Shown: in pieces, positions 2,701-61,676 of the stretch | Numbering within the stretch: the stretch's first letter is position 1 | Layout: every line of letters starts with the position of its first letter | IMG/VR virus record: IMGVR_UViG_3300025030_000051 | Span: 1-64,000 of that record | DNA: 64,000 nt | From: a virus | Strand: one strand, 5' to 3' | Program-made: the position numbers and the translations under genes | The notes under the pieces: model-generated | The model's input: the letters and a program-made list of their open reading frames with translations, nothing else | Told to the model about the DNA's origin: nothing | The model's database searches: none

Positions 2701-3243
2701 ATTTTTTCCCAGTATAATTAAAATTTAAGTATAAAATTAATAATATTTTCCAGCATAAAGACACTTAACTTGAGATATTTCTATTCATTAGATGACTTCA
2801 GATGCATTTTATAATACAGATGTAGGAATTTAATATATTTCAAAACTAATGTCACCAGTATCATCCAAATAAGCAACTGATGTTCAGTACAAGGCATTCC
2901 TTGATTAAGAATTCTGTATCGTCCATCTATCCTGTAAAATTATTTCTGTTATACTTTGTATTTAAGTAAGTTAACAGTTTAATAAATTTTCCTTCATTAT
3001 TTAAAAAGAGGCCCAAAAACTTATTAACAGAAATAGCCGTTTCTATTAATCTAATCGAGCCCCTTTGAGGTTACTCTTCCAAGGAATTTTTTTAATGGAC
3101 ACAGTGATTTCATAGTTATTTTCCAATCTTTTGTTTTTGACTTAACAAACACGTACTTTTTACTTCTTCAAGTAATTTATCAGTAATTATTTAAGTAAAA
3201 GATGGAATAAGAGTACTGTAAAAAGTAGAATAATAATGAATCT
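2701..3243. other. gene-poor spacer containing an inverted gene remnant
   Basis: No intact gene is seen. The plus strand at about 3190-3222 (TTTAAGTAAAAGATGGAAT then AGAGTACTGT) matches, in opposite orientation, part of the broken gene at 19124-19337, where it encodes LSKRWN. This is a fragment of a dispersed gene family. Confidence 0.45.
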
Positions 3244-8884: not shown

Positions 8885-9880
8885 TTATTTTATAGTTTGA
8901 ATAGGTATGTTAAAAATTATTCTGCTTCCCCTTTCTTCAATTCTGAATGGAAACTCAAAATAGCCGTTCAGTGATTTTCTTAACTGATCCTGTAGTTTCT
9001 TGCGGCAGTAAAGAATACAAAAACCACCACCACCTGCACCACTGATCTTACCTCCAGACGCTCCATTTTCAATTGCCAATTTATACAATTTATCAATTTC
9101 ATTATTAGTAATAGTAGAAGCAAATTGCTTTTTAATATACCAGTTTTTATCTAACGTTTTACCAATATTATCAATATTTTTATTCATTTCTAAATCGTCA
9201 TACAAGTTCAGCGTCAATTCTCTCAAATCATTTAATATTTTAACGTTCTTATTTATGTTTTCTCTTTGTTCAGTTAGAATGAAACCAGCCTTCCTTGAAA
9301 CATTAGTAAAGTATAAAAGTAAATTTTCCTCCAGTTGTCTTATTTCATTCGATTTAAGATTTATTTTTTTAACTTCAACTGAGCCATCTGAATTAAATCT
9401 TATAAAATTAACGTTGCCATAAGCACATTGAAACTGATCTTGTTTTCCAATAGGCTTTTTAAGTATGTCAATTTCTATTTTGCAAGCATATTCTGCAAGT
9501 TGTTGAGTAGATATCGAATTTCCAAGATAAGTATAAAAAGCATTCAATAATCCTACTGTCATTGAAGAACTAGTTCCCAATCCTACTCCCTCGTGCGGTG
9601 CATCAGATAAAATACTTACATCAAATCCATTTTTTAATCCTGAAAATATAGCAGTTTCTCTAATCAAATCGTGTCTAATTTCATTTATATTATTAACAAT
9701 TTCTGAATTATGATAATAACATCCTATTTTATTATCAAATCTTTCTTTGATAATTACATAAACATATTTGTTTATAGTTGTAGATATTACACAACCAAAA
9801 TCATTATATTTATAATAATTGAAGAAATCTGTCCCTCCTCCACAAACACTTATTCTCATTGGTGTTTGACTGATAATCAA
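8885..9880 (-). CDS. GHMP kinase, D-glycero-D-manno-heptose-7-phosphate kinase type
   Basis: This is a full-length GHMP kinase (331 aa). It has the N-terminal TPMRISVCGGGTDF, the ATP-binding GVGLGTSSSMTVGLLNAF near residue 100 and the C-terminal KISGAGGGGFCIL. The order and the 'GGGTDF' start are typical of HddA-like kinases, which phosphorylate heptose-7-phosphate at C1 on the way to GDP-heptose for surface glycans. The start is a TTG that overlaps the stop of the upstream nuclease gene, whose last codons supply GGAG at 8-base spacing. The protein would be cytosolic. The exact sugar substrate is inferred from family resemblance. Confidence 0.85.
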   Translation of the reverse strand: MIISQTPMRISVCGGGTDFFNYYKYNDFGCVISTTINKYVYVIIKERFDNKIGCYYHNSEIVNNINEIRHDLIRETAIFSGLKNGFDVSILSDAPHEGVGLGTSSSMTVGLLNAFYTYLGNSISTQQLAEYACKIEIDILKKPIGKQDQFQCAYGNVNFIRFNSDGSVEVKKINLKSNEIRQLEENLLLYFTNVSRKAGFILTEQRENINKNVKILNDLRELTLNLYDDLEMNKNIDNIGKTLDKNWYIKKQFASTITNNEIDKLYKLAIENGASGGKISGAGGGGFCILYCRKKLQDQLRKSLNGYFEFPFRIEERGSRIIFNIPIQTIK

Positions 9881-10833
9881 GCTATCTTCTCCAATATCAA
9901 ATTATTTTTATCAAATGCATTTATTCTTATAAATTCACAATTTAGATATTTGATAATTTCTTGTTCTCTATTTAATTCTTTTTGTTTTAAATTACCAAAT
10001 TTATCATAATGATGTTTTTCATAAAATTCAATAACTGTGTTCTGTTTTTCATCATAAGCGTCTAAAAAATAACCCAATTTTGTAATTGCAAATTTACCAT
10101 TATATAAAGCGTGCTGAAAATTAAAATTATAATACATATTAATCCAATTAAAAATTTCACAAGCAGATTCATTATAACTTTGCCAAAACCAAGTTCCATT
10201 TCTTTTACGTTTATTAATTAAGTCTATTCTTTTTTGTTTACAAAATTCTTGATATTTTTTATCAGCAATTTCTTTTCCATATTTTTCTAACCATTTGTCA
10301 TAAACAGATATTCCATACATTGGATTATTTGTTCCTGAATTACTTTTTGAGTTTTTTTCATTCATTTCTTTTTGTAAATCATTAGCTTTTTCTAATCCAT
10401 GTTTATTTATCCATACATCTTTAACAGATTTTCTATACATACCATTTTTATCACCTTTTAATAAATAACCTTTTCCATACATTGGATTATTTTTGCCAGA
10501 TGTTGCTTTTCTTAATTTATTTTTAATATTTTTTCCTTTTTCTTCGCCATATAATTCCTCGACAGTTTTTCCTTTACGTAGCTTACTAAAATATTTTTTT
10601 AAAATCATCCCTTCTTTAGATTGATAAAAAATTTTTAAACTTTTAGAACCTTTTTCTCCAATTTGTTTATATAATTCTTTAGATCTATTTTTATTATTTT
10701 GACTTGTTACGCAACTTTTACATAATGCATTTTTATTTATTCCATTTTTATAAGTATATTCATTCTTATAAACTATTTCCTTTTTACATTTAAGATTATT
10801 ATTTGGATTTGAGCACATTCTTTTGTAAATCAT
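9877..10833 (-). CDS. homing-type nuclease: zinc ribbon, NUMOD3-like repeats, Vsr-like domain
   Basis: The 318-aa protein starts with a Cys4 zinc unit (CSNPNNNLKC ... LCKSC). Two NUMOD3-like DNA-contact motifs follow (NNPMYGKGY, NNPMYGIS), with YDKWLEKYG helices. The end is a Vsr/PD-(D/E)XK-like domain with FLDAYDEKQNTVIEFYEKHH as its likely active site. Three paralogues occur at 34157, 35763 and 46910. ATG with GGAG at 7 bases is the start. The gene lies between an overlapping ribbon-helix-helix gene and the sugar kinase. Mobility is inferred from the domain types. Confidence 0.8.
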   Translation of the reverse strand: MIYKRMCSNPNNNLKCKKEIVYKNEYTYKNGINKNALCKSCVTSQNNKNRSKELYKQIGEKGSKSLKIFYQSKEGMILKKYFSKLRKGKTVEELYGEEKGKNIKNKLRKATSGKNNPMYGKGYLLKGDKNGMYRKSVKDVWINKHGLEKANDLQKEMNEKNSKSNSGTNNPMYGISVYDKWLEKYGKEIADKKYQEFCKQKRIDLINKRKRNGTWFWQSYNESACEIFNWINMYYNFNFQHALYNGKFAITKLGYFLDAYDEKQNTVIEFYEKHHYDKFGNLKQKELNREQEIIKYLNCEFIRINAFDKNNLILEKIA

Positions 10834-10963
10834 TTAATTTCTCCATTAAAATTATACTCACCCATTTAGAAATTTTTAATGAATTTTCATTACAATATTT
10901 CTTTACTTTTAAATAGATTTCTTCATCTATTCTTGTGGGTCTTGATTTATATTTAGCTTTCAT
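10799..10963 (-). CDS. ribbon-helix-helix DNA-binding protein, 54 aa
   Basis: A short basic strand (SRPTRIDEEIYLKVKKY) is followed by two helices (SLKISKWVSIILMEKLND), the pattern of CopG/Arc-type ribbon-helix-helix proteins. Its 3' end overlaps the nuclease gene by 35 bases, and its ATG-GAG-AAA codons form the nuclease's ribosome site. A similar small gene precedes the nuclease at 46910. A role as repressor or partner of the nuclease is inference. Confidence 0.65.
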   Translation of the reverse strand: MKAKYKSRPTRIDEEIYLKVKKYCNENSLKISKWVSIILMEKLNDLQKNVLKSK

Positions 10964-11025
10964 ACATATAAATATAAAATTTTATAAAATGTAATCAAAA
11001 AATTACTTTATGATTTAAAAAATAA

Positions 11026-34156: not shown

Positions 34157-34900
34157 TTAATTTATTTTTTCTAAAATTAAATCATTTTTATAGAATGCAT
34201 TTATTCTTACAAATTCACAATTTAAATATTCTATAATTTCTTGTTCTCTTTCAATATCTCTTTCTTTTAATTCACCATTTAACTTATAATGCCTTCTTTC
34301 ATAAAATTCTATCACTATGTTTTTCTTTTTATCATAACCGTCTACCCAATAACCAAGCTCTTTAATACGAAATTCTCCGCCATTCATTGCGTGTTGAAAA
34401 TTATAATTATAAAACTTATTAATCCAATAAATTACGTCACACGCAATAATATTAAAACCTGGATGTATTTGTCCGCCATTAAATTTAATTTCTTCAATTC
34501 TTTTTATCATAGTTAATCTATGCTTTCTTTTAGTTTCTCTAGTTCTTTTAGTTCCAGAAGATGGGCTTCCATTTTTTAAATATAAATCAGATATGTGTTT
34601 TCTATATTTTAATGTGTGCTTGTGACCCTTAAATCTACCACGTCTATTTAATTCTTTAAATCTATCACCATATAATTTATCTTTATAAGATTTTAATTTT
34701 TTATCAGCCTCTTCTTTTCCGTATTTTTCTAACCATATATTGTAATGATTTTTTCCATACATACCATTATTTTCTTTTGAAGTATTACAAAATCTACACA
34801 ATGTATTATTTTTTATACCTCTTTTCAAATTATATTCATTTTTATAAAAAATTTCTTTATTACATTTTGGACAATTTCTTTTAAACTGACTTTTTTTCAT
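34157..34900 (-). CDS. homing-type nuclease, zinc ribbon plus Vsr-like domain, 247 aa
   Basis: One N-terminal zinc unit (CPKCNKEIFYKNEY ... LCRFC), one NUMOD3-like stretch (ENNGMYGKNHYNIWLEKYG) and the Vsr-like core YWVDGYDKKKNIVIEFYERR with a C-terminal ILEKIN. It is a paralogue of the gene at 9877. ATG overlaps the upstream glycosyltransferase stop as ATGA. There is no ribbon-helix-helix partner here. Confidence 0.75.
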   Translation of the reverse strand: MKKSQFKRNCPKCNKEIFYKNEYNLKRGIKNNTLCRFCNTSKENNGMYGKNHYNIWLEKYGKEEADKKLKSYKDKLYGDRFKELNRRGRFKGHKHTLKYRKHISDLYLKNGSPSSGTKRTRETKRKHRLTMIKRIEEIKFNGGQIHPGFNIIACDVIYWINKFYNYNFQHAMNGGEFRIKELGYWVDGYDKKKNIVIEFYERRHYKLNGELKERDIEREQEIIEYLNCEFVRINAFYKNDLILEKIN

Positions 34901-35769
34901 TCAATTATATTTTTTTCATTTAAAATTTTTGAATATATATTATCAGCTATAAAATCCTCATATCTTTTATATTTCTGACATCTATTAAAGTTCTCTTTTA
35001 TAAATGGCATCATAATCTCATAATTATTTGGTTCAGATATAGTTTCAAATATTCCTGCTAAATCTTCCAATTTTTCAAATTGCAAGATTCCTTTTTCGTC
35101 AAAATAATTTCCAATATTTTTACACCCCCAATAAATCGGTACTGTTCCTGTCGCAAAACAATCTAGTAATTTTTCCGTATAATAGTATTTAGCTCTTGAA
35201 TTTTCTATAGTTATAGAATACTGATAATCCTTAAGCCCTTCTTCTTTAAATTTAATGGGATTTACTGAACCATCACCATATAAATCTAAATTTTCTATGT
35301 TCATATCAGCAACCCGATGTCTTAGTATATGGCCTTCTGTCCAATTCTTAAAAGAATATATCATTGAGATTAATTTTGTCTTATCGTGTATTTTTATTTC
35401 ATCATCACTAACCCATATACCATTATCTGGAGTAAAAATACATTTTTCTGGATAAGTGTCTAAAAGTTTTTCATCATACGTCATTATATAATCAAATTTA
35501 CTTATATGCTTTTTTTCTAAATTATTTAATCTTTGATTTTGTAAATCACTTATAGCCCTTGGGTCATGAATCCAAGCTAATTTTATTTTACTGTGAACTT
35601 GATCTATGATTTCTTCTTGGTCTAGATCAAAGCAGCGATCTATGAATACTGAAATTCCGTAATATACAAAATGGCCTGTGGTATATTTTATTTTAGTAGG
35701 TATTTTATTTGGTTCAAAACTTAAAACTCTACTCATATTTTTATCTGTTATTATATTTATTTCTAACAT
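34897..35769 (-). CDS. family 10 glycosyltransferase (fucosyltransferase-like), 290 aa
   Basis: The donor-binding motif of GT10 is clear near residue 190: YQYSITIENSRAKYYYTEKL followed by LDCFATGTVPIYWGCKNIGN. These enzymes are alpha-1,3/4-fucosyltransferases or close relatives using GDP-sugars, which fits the GMD in the same island. The start overlaps the upstream nuclease stop by 7 bases. Confidence 0.8.
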   Translation of the reverse strand: MLEINIITDKNMSRVLSFEPNKIPTKIKYTTGHFVYYGISVFIDRCFDLDQEEIIDQVHSKIKLAWIHDPRAISDLQNQRLNNLEKKHISKFDYIMTYDEKLLDTYPEKCIFTPDNGIWVSDDEIKIHDKTKLISMIYSFKNWTEGHILRHRVADMNIENLDLYGDGSVNPIKFKEEGLKDYQYSITIENSRAKYYYTEKLLDCFATGTVPIYWGCKNIGNYFDEKGILQFEKLEDLAGIFETISEPNNYEIMMPFIKENFNRCQKYKRYEDFIADNIYSKILNEKNIIE

Positions 35770-36755
35770 AATTTTACTCTAATAAATTCATATCCTAAAT
35801 TTTCTAAATTTTTTTGTCTCTTAATGTCATTTTGTTTTAAATTTCCGTTATTATCAAAATGATGTCTTTCATCTACTTCTATAATTAATTTTCTTTCTTC
35901 ATCTATACCATCTGGAAAATATCTACCAACTCTAATTTCTCCACCATTTAATGCATGTCGAAAATTTAAATCATAATACATATTAAACCAATCTATTATT
36001 TCACAAGCAATTATACTATAAGATGGCCAAGAAAAATTATTGTTTTTTATTTTCTTTTCAATAATACTAATTCTTTGTTTTTCAATAGATTCTTCATTTC
36101 TAACCTTTCCTATTTGTTTAAATTTAATTTTATTTCTAGTTTCTATAGGAGTAACATACCCAAATTTTACACAACTTTGACATATTGAATCATTTTTTAT
36201 TGCATTTACATAACTTCCTTTATTTTTATAATAAATTATGTGATGACATTTAGGATTATTTAATGGATTAGAACATATTCTTTCATATTTTTCTTTACGT
36301 ATGATTTTTATTGAAGCACAACTTAAACATAAACGATTATTTTTTATAGAATTTTTATAAGCTTTATAACTCCTATATTTCATTACTTTTAAGCAATCAG
36401 AATTATTTAATGGATTTATACAAATTTTTTCATAAATTTTTTTAGAAGTTGTATATAAACCAGATTTATAATTTGAATTATTTTCACCAGATTTAGAACA
36501 ACTTTTACATTTTCTATTATTCTTTAAAGCAGTCAAATATGAAAATTTAGATTTATATTTAATTTCTTTTTTACATTTAGGGCAAATTCTTTTATTAGAT
36601 TCAATAAAATATTTTATATGATTGCACTTTAAACAAGTAGCATTATTCTTTATAGCTCTACAATAAGACTTTTTATTTTTATAATAAATAATCTTATTAC
36701 ATTTAGAATTATTTTTTGGATTTGGACATTTTCTTTGATACAATTTTTCTTTCAA
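35763..36755 (-). CDS. homing-type nuclease with four zinc ribbons, 330 aa
   Basis: Four tandem zinc units of the type C-x-C-x-Y-x-I-K-N-N-x-x-C-x-x-C span residues about 8-200 (for example CPKCKKEIKYKSKFSY and CSNPLNNPKCHHIIYY ... ICQSC). The Vsr-like core is FPDGIDEERKLIIEVDERHH. It lacks the NUMOD3 motifs of its paralogues. TTG start; an open frame without a start extends upstream. It sits between two phage genes and overlaps the GT10 start. Confidence 0.7.
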   Translation of the reverse strand: MKEKLYQRKCPNPKNNSKCNKIIYYKNKKSYCRAIKNNATCLKCNHIKYFIESNKRICPKCKKEIKYKSKFSYLTALKNNRKCKSCSKSGENNSNYKSGLYTTSKKIYEKICINPLNNSDCLKVMKYRSYKAYKNSIKNNRLCLSCASIKIIRKEKYERICSNPLNNPKCHHIIYYKNKGSYVNAIKNDSICQSCVKFGYVTPIETRNKIKFKQIGKVRNEESIEKQRISIIEKKIKNNNFSWPSYSIIACEIIDWFNMYYDLNFRHALNGGEIRVGRYFPDGIDEERKLIIEVDERHHFDNNGNLKQNDIKRQKNLENLGYEFIRVKLC

Positions 36756-44342: not shown

Positions 44343-45245
44343 TTATTTTTTAATTTTTTTTATCATATTCCAAATATCTTCTATAGAAATATTTATTTTT
44401 TTATTATTAATAAAATTGTCTAATTCTAATTCAAGATTAGTTTTTGATTTATCTATATATATATTATTATTTAAACATTCTATAAGCTCATATCCTATAT
44501 TACCATACTTATCTATCTTATTATTATTTTCATTATAATGAGAGGCATTAAAAAATAATTTATCACCATCCCAAAAAAATGATCCTCTTGATCCAGTTAT
44601 ATTAATAATTCTTGTTTTTTGACAATATATCCATGATGAAAACATTTCAATTATAGCATTTTTATATTTACATAAAACAAAAATACTATCACTTTTTATT
44701 GGAAATTTAAAATTATTTAATATTTTACTGTATAAAATTTCAATATTGTTTCCAAAAATATATAAAAGTATAGAAATATCATGTATAAGATAATCTTCAA
44801 TTATTGAAACATCATCTCTTATACGCGGACCCATGGATGTTCTTTGAATTTTTATAGTTAATATATCTCCTATAATATCAATATTATTTTTTATATATTT
44901 TACAGTAGGATCTATTAACCACACAAATCCATGAAAACAATCTTTCATTTCATAAGCTTCTTCATAACTAATTCCAACTGGCTTTTCTACTAATATATTT
45001 TGATCTTGAATTCCTTGTTCTTTTAATTCATTGTAAATTTGTAAATGAGTTGATGCTGGTGTACATATAATTGCATGAGTATATTCTTTTGGGACATCTT
45101 TTATTTTAGTCCAGAACGGAATATTTTCTTGTTTTTTATTAGGATCTAAATCAACTGTACCATACAAACCGTATTTAGAATCTTTTATAGTTTTAATCCA
45201 ATTTTTTGACCAATATCCACAACCAATAATTATTATTTTAAACAT
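44343..45245 (-). CDS. Gfo/Idh/MocA-family oxidoreductase, 300 aa
   Basis: MFKIIIIGCGYWSKNWIKTI is the NAD-binding Rossmann start and ILVEKPVGISYEEA contains the EKP motif near residue 90. Such enzymes oxidise or reduce sugars. The ATG at 45245 overlaps the methylase stop. A longer ORF to 45272 is less likely. Probably acts on a nucleotide sugar of the island. Confidence 0.8.
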   Translation of the reverse strand: MFKIIIIGCGYWSKNWIKTIKDSKYGLYGTVDLDPNKKQENIPFWTKIKDVPKEYTHAIICTPASTHLQIYNELKEQGIQDQNILVEKPVGISYEEAYEMKDCFHGFVWLIDPTVKYIKNNIDIIGDILTIKIQRTSMGPRIRDDVSIIEDYLIHDISILLYIFGNNIEILYSKILNNFKFPIKSDSIFVLCKYKNAIIEMFSSWIYCQKTRIINITGSRGSFFWDGDKLFFNASHYNENNNKIDKYGNIGYELIECLNNNIYIDKSKTNLELELDNFINNKKINISIEDIWNMIKKIKK

Positions 45246-46047
45246 TATAATATAAGACTTCGTTTCTAACATTATTATTTTTTCTATTAGGTGAAATGTT
45301 AATTATATCTTTTGTTTTTACATTTTTAAAATTATTTTCTAATAACCTGTTTGAAATTTCATTTTCTAAATCTGAATAAAATATTTTATTATGTTTGCTT
45401 AGCTTAATTATTTTATCTATGAGTATTTGTTGATCATTATTTTTAAATTCTTGTTTATAAGACACGTCAGTATTTGAATAAGGAGGATCTAAATACATTA
45501 CGCAATCTTTAAAATTATCTATTATTTCTTTATAATCTACATTTTTTATTTGACTTTTACGTAATTTATTTTTTATGATATTATAATCTAATTCTTTAAG
45601 AAAATATAATCTATTACCAAACGATTGATTCATTCCCATTTCAGAAAATCTTAATAAAGAATTTATACAGGAGTTTGCTAAAAAATACAAGAATAGACCT
45701 TTTTCTTTTTTATTAGTAAAGTGTAAATTATCATTATAGCTATTTCTAAAATTGTAATATGATTCTTTATTAGTTTTTATATCACCAAACTTATCATAAA
45801 TGTAATTCTTAACATCAACGAAGTCTTTATATGAAAAATCTAAAACTGATTTCCAAATATAAATAACATTTTCATCAATATCGTTTATTATATACAAATC
45901 AAAGTTATCAACAACATTTACAAATATCGCTCCTGAACCAATGAATGGTTCAACATAGATTTTTTTATCAGTGTCTTTTATTAATTCATTAAAAATATTA
46001 ACAATATGTAACTTAGAACCCCTATACTTAAAAAATCTAACTTTCAT
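45238..46047 (-). CDS. dam: DNA adenine methyltransferase, D12/Dam class
   Basis: FFKYRGSKLHIVNIFNELI and VEPFIGSGAIFVNV form the SAM site (FxGxG), and CVMYLDPPYSNT near residue 180 is the DPPY catalytic motif. The order FxGxG then DPPY defines alpha/D12-class N6-adenine methylases such as T4 Dam. It probably protects or marks phage DNA. It stands alone without a restriction partner. Confidence 0.85.
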   Translation of the reverse strand: MKVRFFKYRGSKLHIVNIFNELIKDTDKKIYVEPFIGSGAIFVNVVDNFDLYIINDIDENVIYIWKSVLDFSYKDFVDVKNYIYDKFGDIKTNKESYYNFRNSYNDNLHFTNKKEKGLFLYFLANSCINSLLRFSEMGMNQSFGNRLYFLKELDYNIIKNKLRKSQIKNVDYKEIIDNFKDCVMYLDPPYSNTDVSYKQEFKNNDQQILIDKIIKLSKHNKIFYSDLENEISNRLLENNFKNVKTKDIINISPNRKNNNVRNEVLYYNV

Positions 46048-46430: not shown

Positions 46431-46913
46431 TCAACAACAGGTATTAAAATAATTTTTAACATTTTTTATTTTTGCTGGTATCCCATAGGCAATACAATTA
46501 TTTGGAATATTTTTATTTACAAGTGAAAGAGCACCAATTATTACGTTTGAACCAATTGTGACGCCTGGTAAAACAACTGAGTTTGCACCTATTTGTACAT
46601 TGTTTCCTATAACTACTGGAGCTCTCTTTACATGAGTTCCGTTTATTGGATCTTTTTTTAAATTATATTTTCTATAGTCAGAAGAATCATGGGAATAAAT
46701 ATGACAACCAGAACTAATAGTAACATTATCTCCTATTTCAAGTCCAGATGATGCATCTAAAATACAAAAATAACCAAGCCAAAAATTTTTTCCTATCTTT
46801 AAATTTTGTTTTCCTCTGATAATATTAAATTGATTATACTCTATTCCAACTTCATTTTTTAATTCTCGCCACAGAGGATATTGTGATATTAATTCAATTT
46901 CTTTATCGATCAT
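46431..46913 (-). CDS. hexapeptide-repeat acyltransferase, 160 aa
   Basis: Left-handed beta-helix repeats run from LKIGKNFWLGYFCILDA through VVIGNNVQIGANSVVLPGVT and IGSNVIIGALSLVN, with the closing AYGIPAKI. SSGCHIYSHDSS holds the likely catalytic His. It resembles O-acetyltransferases of polysaccharide clusters. The ATG overlaps the upstream nuclease stop as ATGA. Confidence 0.8.
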   Translation of the reverse strand: MIDKEIELISQYPLWRELKNEVGIEYNQFNIIRGKQNLKIGKNFWLGYFCILDASSGLEIGDNVTISSGCHIYSHDSSDYRKYNLKKDPINGTHVKRAPVVIGNNVQIGANSVVLPGVTIGSNVIIGALSLVNKNIPNNCIAYGIPAKIKNVKNYFNTCC

Positions 46914-47806
46914 ATTATTTTTTCCAGTATAAGATTATTTTTATCAAAAGCATTTATTCTTATAAATTCACATTTCAATAATTTAATAATTTCTTGTTCT
47001 CTTTCTAATTCTTTTTGTTTTAAATTTCCATTTTTGTCATAGTGTCTTTTTTCGTAAAATTCAATTATTATATTTCTTTTAATATCGTATGCATCTAAAA
47101 AATATCCAAGTTTATTTAAATAAACTTCACCGCCATTTAATGCATGCTGAAAATTTAAATCATAATACATATTAATCCAATCTATAATATCACAGACATT
47201 TTTATTATAATTGGGCCAGCCAAAATTTCCATTATTGATTTTTCTATTAATAGTAATTAATTTTTGTTTTTTACAATATTCTTTCCACATTTCTTTTGCT
47301 CTTTCTTTACCATATCTTTTTATCCAAATATCTTTAATAGATTTATTATACATTCCATTATATTTACCTTCTAACAAATATCCTCTCTTATACATTGGAT
47401 TATTTTTGCCAGATGTTCTTTTAGACTGTTTTTGTCTTTCTTCTAAATTTTTCCATCTCTTTATTTGTGATATTTTCATTTTTTCTATAGTTTTTCTAAA
47501 AATTGTTTTACAACGTTGCGAACAACTTCTACATTTTTTATTTTTTCTTAAAGAATTTCTATAACTTTTAATATTATTGTAAATAATTTCTTTACCACAA
47601 GATGGACAAGTTCTTTTAAATATTCTAATTTTTATATATTTATGATTCTTTTCATGATACTCACAACAACTTTTACACAATGTATTTTTCTTTATAGCAT
47701 CATCTAATATTTTTTTATTTTTATAAAAAATTTCTTTTTTACACTTAGGATTATTATTTGAATTTTGACAAATTCTCATCCAATTTTTTTGTTCTTCTTT
47801 TTTCAA
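46910..47806 (-). CDS. homing-type nuclease, two zinc ribbons plus Vsr-like domain, 298 aa
   Basis: Two zinc units (CQNSNNNPKCKKEIFYKNKK ... LCKSC and CPSCGKEIIYNNIKSY ... CRSC), a NUMOD3-like NNPMYKRGYLLEGKYNGMY and the Vsr-like FLDAYDIKRNIIIEFYEKRH. TTG at 47806 has GGGAG at 7 bases inside the overlapping ribbon-helix-helix gene. An ATG lies 9 codons further in. It is closest to the nuclease at 9877 and, like it, ends NLILEK. Confidence 0.75.
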   Translation of the reverse strand: MKKEEQKNWMRICQNSNNNPKCKKEIFYKNKKILDDAIKKNTLCKSCCEYHEKNHKYIKIRIFKRTCPSCGKEIIYNNIKSYRNSLRKNKKCRSCSQRCKTIFRKTIEKMKISQIKRWKNLEERQKQSKRTSGKNNPMYKRGYLLEGKYNGMYNKSIKDIWIKRYGKERAKEMWKEYCKKQKLITINRKINNGNFGWPNYNKNVCDIIDWINMYYDLNFQHALNGGEVYLNKLGYFLDAYDIKRNIIIEFYEKRHYDKNGNLKQKELEREQEIIKLLKCEFIRINAFDKNNLILEKII

Positions 47807-47933
47807 TACTTTTCTCCCAATATTCTTTTAATATTTTATCAATGAAAACATTGAGTTTTAATCCATTTGTTTTACAGTATTCTCTATACTTTGAATGAAT
47901 TCCTTCTGTTATTTTAAGACTTTTTGTTTTCAT
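47754..47933 (-). CDS. ribbon-helix-helix DNA-binding protein, 59 aa
   Basis: MKTKSLKITEGIHSKYREYC then KTNGLKLNVFIDKILKEYWE gives strand-helix-helix. It aligns with the small gene at 10799 in length of strand, central 'YC' and position relative to the nuclease. It overlaps the nuclease by 53 bases. A regulatory partnership is inferred. Confidence 0.6.
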   Translation of the reverse strand: MKTKSLKITEGIHSKYREYCKTNGLKLNVFIDKILKEYWEKSIEKRRTKKLDENLSKFK

Positions 47934-61293: not shown

Positions 61294-61494
61294 TTAAATC
61301 ATATTATTTAATGCATCATCTATCAGTTTTTCCAACATATCATCATAAGTAAAAAAAATATCATGTGGTCCAGTTCCATGTAAGTTAGATATTAATTGAC
61401 AAAGTCTGATATCATATTGTTTTTCATATAATTTTAAAAGTTTTTCAATTAAACGTTTTTTATCTTCTGGATCTCTATAATTTATATATTTCAT
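61294..61494 (-). CDS. DUF1040/YihD-like small protein, 66 aa
   Basis: YRDPEDKKRLIEKLLKLYEK, DIRLCQLISNLHG and DIFFTYDDMLEKLIDDAL match the small helical family 'DPxRI..iL..L...W...PDLRLGQLI.N....DiFY.eDdeLl'. Function unknown. ATG start. Confidence 0.65.
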   Translation of the reverse strand: MKYINYRDPEDKKRLIEKLLKLYEKQYDIRLCQLISNLHGTGPHDIFFTYDDMLEKLIDDALNNMI

Positions 61495-61676
61495 AATAAA
61501 CTTCCGCTTATTTGTAAATAATTTATTTTATTAACAATTTTATCCCTAAATTGAGATTCACTTAGAAAAAATTTTATACAAGTATCAACAAAATTTGTCA
61601 AATTAATCTTATTATTAAAACAATCAACTTTAAATTCTTTGTATTGACTTTCTTCTAAATTTATAGATGTAAGCAA
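61491..61676 (-). CDS. ribbon-helix-helix protein, 61 aa
   Basis: SINLEESQYKEFKVDCFNNK then INLTNFVDTCIKFFLSESQF give strand-helix-helix as in CopG-type repressors. Start is TTG. Stop overlaps the next start by 4 bases. Possibly a phage regulator. Confidence 0.55.
   Translation of the reverse strand: MLTSINLEESQYKEFKVDCFNNKINLTNFVDTCIKFFLSESQFRDKIVNKINYLQISGSLL

Follow-up and report, generated by a model that had tools for sequence, protein, structure and literature searches.

A ribbon–helix–helix gene and its leader as a candidate control unit of homing-type nuclease modules in phages

A short gene for a protein with a predicted ribbon–helix–helix (RHH) fold overlaps the start of a homing-type nuclease gene at two places in the DNA analysed here, and comparable pairs recur in other phage contigs with nucleases of unrelated classes. 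The stretch analysed (the window) comprises the first 64,000 nucleotides of a virus record of 112,828 bases (IMGVR_UViG_3300025030_000051). On balance, the RHH protein and the leader in front of its gene appear to form a self-contained negative control unit of a free-standing homing-endonuclease module. The most likely function, judged from sequence, is repression by the RHH protein of the promoter of its own module, with the nuclease translationally coupled to the RHH gene.

The RHH gene of the first pair (10799–10963, minus strand) is an ORF of 54 amino acids that matches the Arc-like PHROGs 3180 and 582. It overlaps by 35 nt the gene of a 318-residue homing-type nuclease on the same strand (9877–10833). 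At the junction, ATGGAGAAATTAAATG, the nuclease ATG is preceded at 7 nt by the GGAG that serves as its ribosome site (10841–10844, minus strand) and that lies inside the RHH codons ATG-GAG-AAA; contig L012 has this site too. The length of the small ORF, the extent of the overlap and the position of the GGAG had been proposed in a preliminary description and are all confirmed on the sequence. The two genes are probably translationally coupled. On the downstream side, the nuclease stop overlaps by 4 nt the start of a GHMP-kinase gene (8885–9880, minus strand). L012 is the sole close relative of this pair, and there too the module is present with a GHMP-kinase gene downstream. In the window the kinase gene that follows the module has a TTG start (9880), and the best start codons available in L012 (4318–4360) are ACG or ATT; module-free kinase homologues have an ATG or TTG start. 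Insertion of the module may have cost the kinase gene its normal start. The L012 phage excepted, kinase relatives are distant (34–45% identical), and no near empty site for the first pair was found among them.

The second pair, described earlier as a diverged recurrence at 46910–47933, is likewise borne out. Its RHH gene (47754–47933, minus strand; 59 amino acids; PHROG 582, 1e-4) overlaps by 53 nt a nuclease gene (46910–47806, minus strand) that encodes 298 residues from a TTG start with GGGAG 7 nt upstream; translation might instead begin at an internal ATG at 47779. The protein contains two zinc-ribbon-like modules, a NUMOD3-like motif and the same catalytic domain as the first nuclease. 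Between the two pairs, identity is 72% for the catalytic domains and about 35% for the RHH proteins. The gene that follows, for a hexapeptide acetyltransferase (46431–46913, minus strand), overlaps the nuclease gene by 4 nt. A gene for a D12-class adenine-specific DNA methyltransferase (45238–46047) lies near this pair. The record holds four copies of the nuclease, two of which had been overlooked and have no RHH gene upstream. The start of one (34157–34900, minus strand; 247 amino acids) overlaps a glycosyltransferase-like gene, and the other (35763–36755, minus strand; 330 amino acids) has four zinc-ribbon-like modules. The glycosyltransferase-like gene (34897–35769) sits between these two copies and overlaps each by a few bases.

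The small protein is predicted to adopt the RHH (MetJ/Arc/CopG) fold and, as such, would bind DNA as a dimer. A family profile built from 17 relatives finds three RHH proteins at the top of its PDB matches, SvtR (1.9e-5), ParG (0.03) and AvtR (0.04), and PHROG matches of the family are to Arc-like repressors, reaching 1e-7. An AlphaFold monomer model contains helices at residues 14–26 and 31–53, preceded by the strand region, in which the strand itself is unassigned. Its matches in the PDB are for the most part to Arc and CopG, with weak E-values (0.2–0.5). Profile search and predicted structure thus agree with the assignment to the CopG/Arc families made earlier. The RHH proteins of the modules have about 45–63 residues, with a short tail beyond the fold, and resemble Arc, CopG, SvtR, ParG and AvtR in fold, size and sequence profile. 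Purifying selection on the small ORFs, on which the preliminary description had let its proposal stand or fall, is present, although clear only where RHH pairs are close enough to measure. The dN/dS ratio is 0.05–0.13 for the RHH genes of L287, L290 and L291 and 0.08–0.12 for those of the closest TnsA-linked pairs; selection is weaker between the first pair and L321 or L012 (0.4–0.5) and between the second pair and L326 (0.6–0.7). The matches to Arc-like repressor profiles and to SvtR, ParG and AvtR, together with purifying selection in relatives at the same position, argue that the small ORF of the first pair is more than a chance reading frame.

The nuclease of the first pair consists of an N-terminal zinc-ribbon-like module, two NUMOD3 motifs (3e-6) and a C-terminal catalytic domain of the Vsr-like (DUF559/MTES_1575/RAP-like) type, encoded at 9880–10200 (minus strand). 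Its relatives number at least 276 in viral contigs, and the loci that were fetched yielded 243 full-length ORFs in 112 clusters. In alignments the catalytic domain shows the pattern Y-x2-D-x2-D-x7-E-x2-E-x2-H...R, with invariant D, E, H and R residues, and for some members the C-domain alignment matches DUF559 (2e-6), MTES_1575 (7e-5) and RAP (1e-3), which belong to the Vsr-like group. The model is confident for this domain, and its order of strands and helices agrees with a Vsr-like (PD-(D/E)XK) core. The conserved residues and the family matches bear out the nuclease type named in the earlier account, and NUMOD3 motifs and zinc-ribbon arrays are DNA-binding elements of the homing type. I-Bth0305I, of the EDxHD family, is similarly a phage nuclease in which a Vsr-like catalytic domain is tethered to a modular region that binds DNA. 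However, I-Bth0305I (3r3p) and Vsr (1vsr) are weak Foldseek matches of the model (E about 0.6–0.7), profile scores are weak as well, and the phage nuclease has the pattern D-x2-D-x7-E-x2-E-x2-H. The nuclease is accordingly termed Vsr-like, as a prediction that stops short of membership of the EDxHD family. In the open-licence literature searched, no description of a linked RHH gene was found for I-Bth0305I or other EDxHD nucleases.

Some nuclease genes at first appear broken. Those of L047 (2560–3291) and L277 (278–1195) become intact only when TGA is taken to encode Trp; the TGA codons stand at conserved Trp positions, and on this reading neither gene is broken. Other open frames in these contigs also lengthen on TGA readthrough, which suggests that L047 and L277 derive from phages with recoded TGA. 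The nucleases of L013, L326 and L165 retain a frameshifted appearance.

About 24 RHH–nuclease modules were found in contigs of uncultured phages, and their nucleases fall into four unrelated classes (Vsr-like, GIY-YIG, HNH and TnsA-like PD-(D/E)XK). Among the 111 Vsr-like clusters with enough upstream sequence, an RHH ORF overlaps or touches the nuclease start in nine, represented by the two window pairs, L012, L037, L065, L069, L137, L251 and L164. RHH genes also precede frameshifted, truncated or recoded nucleases in L013, L047, L326, L165, L321 and L277. A control with reversed proteins gave a best RHH match of 0.59, against 1e-20 to 3e-8 for the RHH proteins of the modules. As many of the latter had been profile seeds, the weight rests on the non-seed matches and on an independent scan, in which viral contigs were queried with RHH sequence alone. 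In that scan the overlapping downstream gene encodes a Vsr-like nuclease in L287, a GIY-YIG nuclease with NUMOD3 in L290, an HNH/endonuclease-VII-like protein in L291 and L264, and a TnsA-like PD-(D/E)XK nuclease with zinc ribbons in L292 and L302. The pair therefore recurs in many unrelated contigs and so passes the recurrence check that had been set for it, but the module as first described was both too narrow, in naming only a Vsr-like partner, and too broad, given that an RHH gene accompanies only about one in nine Vsr-like clusters. Two related RHH lineages (L265–L286 and L295–L303) have no adjoining nuclease, so the RHH family must have other roles too. A tblastn search of annotated phages with five RHH proteins returned nothing useful; the cassette DNA of L287 gave no match, and no cultured phage carrying the cassette was found.

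The leader and the RHH gene move between sites. A segment of 184 bp is 97.3% identical between L287 and L290; it consists of a 60-bp leader and the RHH gene to a few nucleotides past the nuclease ATG. The DNA on both flanks is unrelated, and the nucleases are Vsr-like and GIY-YIG, respectively. L291 contains the same cassette at 85% identity with an HNH nuclease instead of a Vsr-like one. Its site is orthologous to that of L287, lying between two glycosyltransferase genes 75% identical to those of L287. L291 also has a glycosyltransferase gene split by an insert of HNH and RHH genes (about 800 bp); the counterpart in L287 is uninterrupted, giving an occupied and an empty site. Homology between the first pair and L321 extends over the leader and the RHH gene into the nuclease start, and their sites differ, with a GHMP-kinase gene downstream in the former and a DegT aminotransferase-like gene in the latter. 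Some contigs carry two or three modules. For eight Vsr-type modules, pairwise identities of RHH proteins and catalytic domains are uncorrelated (r = -0.03), as expected if the parts are reassorted. All examples come from metagenome contigs, in which single cases may be chimeric assemblies; L287 is represented by three near-identical contigs and L291 by two. Judged by these comparisons, leader and RHH gene travel as a unit, and the shared sequence can stop at the start codon of the nuclease. The suggestion of a two-gene mobile module holds up well in the light of the unrelated flanks, the multiple copies per contig and the split glycosyltransferase gene. The comparison with empty sites that had been called for succeeds for the related module of L291 and L287; for the first pair it yields only the distant module-free kinase homologues.

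In the leader of the first pair a candidate operator, the inverted repeat GTAAT-N6-ATTAC (10991–11006), is the single match to this dyad in the window. It is conserved exactly upstream of the L012 RHH gene and in a less perfect, diverged form in L321. The -35 hexamer of a promoter-like element, TTGATT-16-TATATT (10971–10998, minus strand), falls within the repeat, and by itself this leader does not rise above the shuffle background in a promoter scan. A -10-like motif near the RHH start is found in 14 of 18 module leaders and 55 of 579 control leaders, with a motif list picked after the leaders had been inspected. Inverted repeats also occur in the leaders of L287 and L290 (GGTATAC-N4-GTATACC), L291 (GGGTATA-N6-TATACCC) and L325 (AAAGTGTA-N6-TACACTTT), in several cases just upstream of the -10-like motif. 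RHH repressors such as Arc, CopG and ParG as a rule bind repeats of this kind and repress the promoters of their own genes. Strong inverted repeats are commoner in module leaders than in control leaders (p = 0.019), and about half of the module leaders have no clear GC-containing repeat. Owing to the AT-rich DNA, most shuffle tests on single leaders fall short of significance. Searching with the L287 operator turned up no further cassette besides the three known ones, and a match in L304 was rejected as a GC-rich chance match. The earlier proposal that the small protein represses the nuclease thus gains indirect support, from promoter-like elements in a conserved leader and from inverted repeats in roughly half of the modules.

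The module would consist of a leader with its own promoter, often with an inverted-repeat operator, followed by the RHH gene and the nuclease gene; the latter begins, together with its ribosome site, within the final codons of the RHH gene. A dimer of the RHH protein would bind the leader and repress the operon, so that the nuclease would be made in a limited pulse after infection, and translational coupling would reduce its output further. The nuclease would then cut its target DNA in neighbouring sequence of module-free phages, and repair would copy the module in. Because such control would be independent of the nuclease fold, the cassette could join any nuclease. Counting against this scheme, two of the four nucleases in the phage have no RHH gene, and in L323 the order is reversed, with the RHH gene 3' of the HNH gene. 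It is also conceivable, though doubtful, that the lasting selfish unit is the cassette of leader, RHH gene and start codon, which would capture unrelated nucleases, and that RHH variants have co-evolved with their own operators, so that related modules in one phage would not cross-repress.

Both elements of the proposed control, autorepression and translational coupling, have been described for T4 homing nucleases (PMC2988022). The free-standing T4 nucleases of the seg and mob groups likewise overlap an upstream ORF, by 11–24 bp, with presumed translational coupling and lower nuclease output; translational control of the remaining ones still awaits experiment according to the same review (PMC2988022). 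It treats the overlapped ORFs as upstream genes, in contrast to a regulator that moves with the nuclease. I-TevI expression is kept low through repression at an operator that covers the promoter of its gene (PMC2988022, PMC3943268). In that case the operator is bound by the nuclease, whereas in the phage module the proposed binder is a separate RHH protein, which would leave the nuclease free to be swapped. In open-licence literature on homing endonucleases with RHH, CopG or Arc proteins, autorepression or operons, no description was found of RHH repressors as dedicated partners of homing nucleases or as a shared control cassette. How free-standing homing nucleases keep their expression tolerably low is largely open, and a swappable repressor cassette shared by four nuclease classes would, if real, be a general answer, with selfish genes exchanging control parts. 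The modules supply small candidate repressor–operator pairs open to direct testing and a means of assigning many short phage ORFs, now labelled 'hypothetical', to mobile nuclease modules.

The RHH gene could instead be an ordinary resident regulator whose 3' end was invaded independently by several nucleases, making it a target and no part of the module. Related RHH genes without nucleases in other phages (L265–L286, L295–L303) would fit, as would the frequent overlap of T4 homing genes with resident upstream genes (PMC2988022). This is nevertheless unlikely given that the cassette with its leader has itself been transplanted between unrelated flanks in L287 and L290, that the first pair and L321 share leader, RHH gene and nuclease start at different sites, that contigs may hold two or three copies, and that an RHH gene lies within an insert of about 800 bp in L291. 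The preliminary description had also allowed that the small protein guides the nuclease, as a targeting or recruitment subunit that binds DNA and delivers or stabilizes the enzyme at the homing site. Co-expression through the overlap suits this, and an apparent fusion in L015 of a GRKKK/GRPK-like stretch to the nuclease N-terminus suggests that small DNA-binding partners can join nucleases. Near-identical RHH proteins, however, accompany Vsr-like, GIY-YIG and HNH nucleases with different catalytic domains, RHH and nuclease identities are uncorrelated, no RHH–nuclease fusion occurs among 247 nuclease ORFs, and the conserved sequence is located at the module's own leader, all of which make guidance quite improbable.

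Guiding or inhibiting the nuclease would in either case need one small protein to recognize unrelated nuclease classes. An antitoxin-like pair, in which binding of the RHH protein would inhibit the nuclease and so protect host or phage DNA, is therefore very unlikely as well, even though gene order and overlap resemble type II toxin–antitoxin operons, many of which have RHH antitoxins. The protein has only about 45–63 residues with a short tail after the fold, its partners have four unrelated folds, and intact RHH genes precede truncated or frameshifted nucleases. The nuclease start codon and ribosome site lie within the RHH ORF in most modules, which might mean that the ORF is mainly a translational leader for coupling and its product has no specific function; dN/dS ratios of 0.05–0.13 and an RHH pattern kept at 30–40% identity make this hardly credible. 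A programmed frameshift fusion of the two proteins was rejected, as the frame relation varies between modules and every nuclease has its own start. Self-contained repression by the RHH protein remains the preferred reading.

Other small genes occur beside these nucleases. In L164 (1398–1559, minus strand) and L031 (900–1052, minus strand) a second RHH gene lies on the opposite strand, divergent from the RHH–nuclease operon. Small basic ORFs of a second type (MGRKKKY...) overlap the starts of nucleases of the same Vsr-like family in L070 (2469–2615), L072 (2424–2564) and L097 (867–1043), and take the same position in L100 (2184–2348) and L154 (1933–2088); in L015 (3488–4273) a comparable stretch appears to make up the N-terminus of the nuclease. 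A different RHH gene, without a nuclease, is found in the window at 61491–61676 (minus strand) and in L256 at 2886–3095. It is probably a resident regulator, and in L256–L258 it lies 5' of a glycosyltransferase gene.
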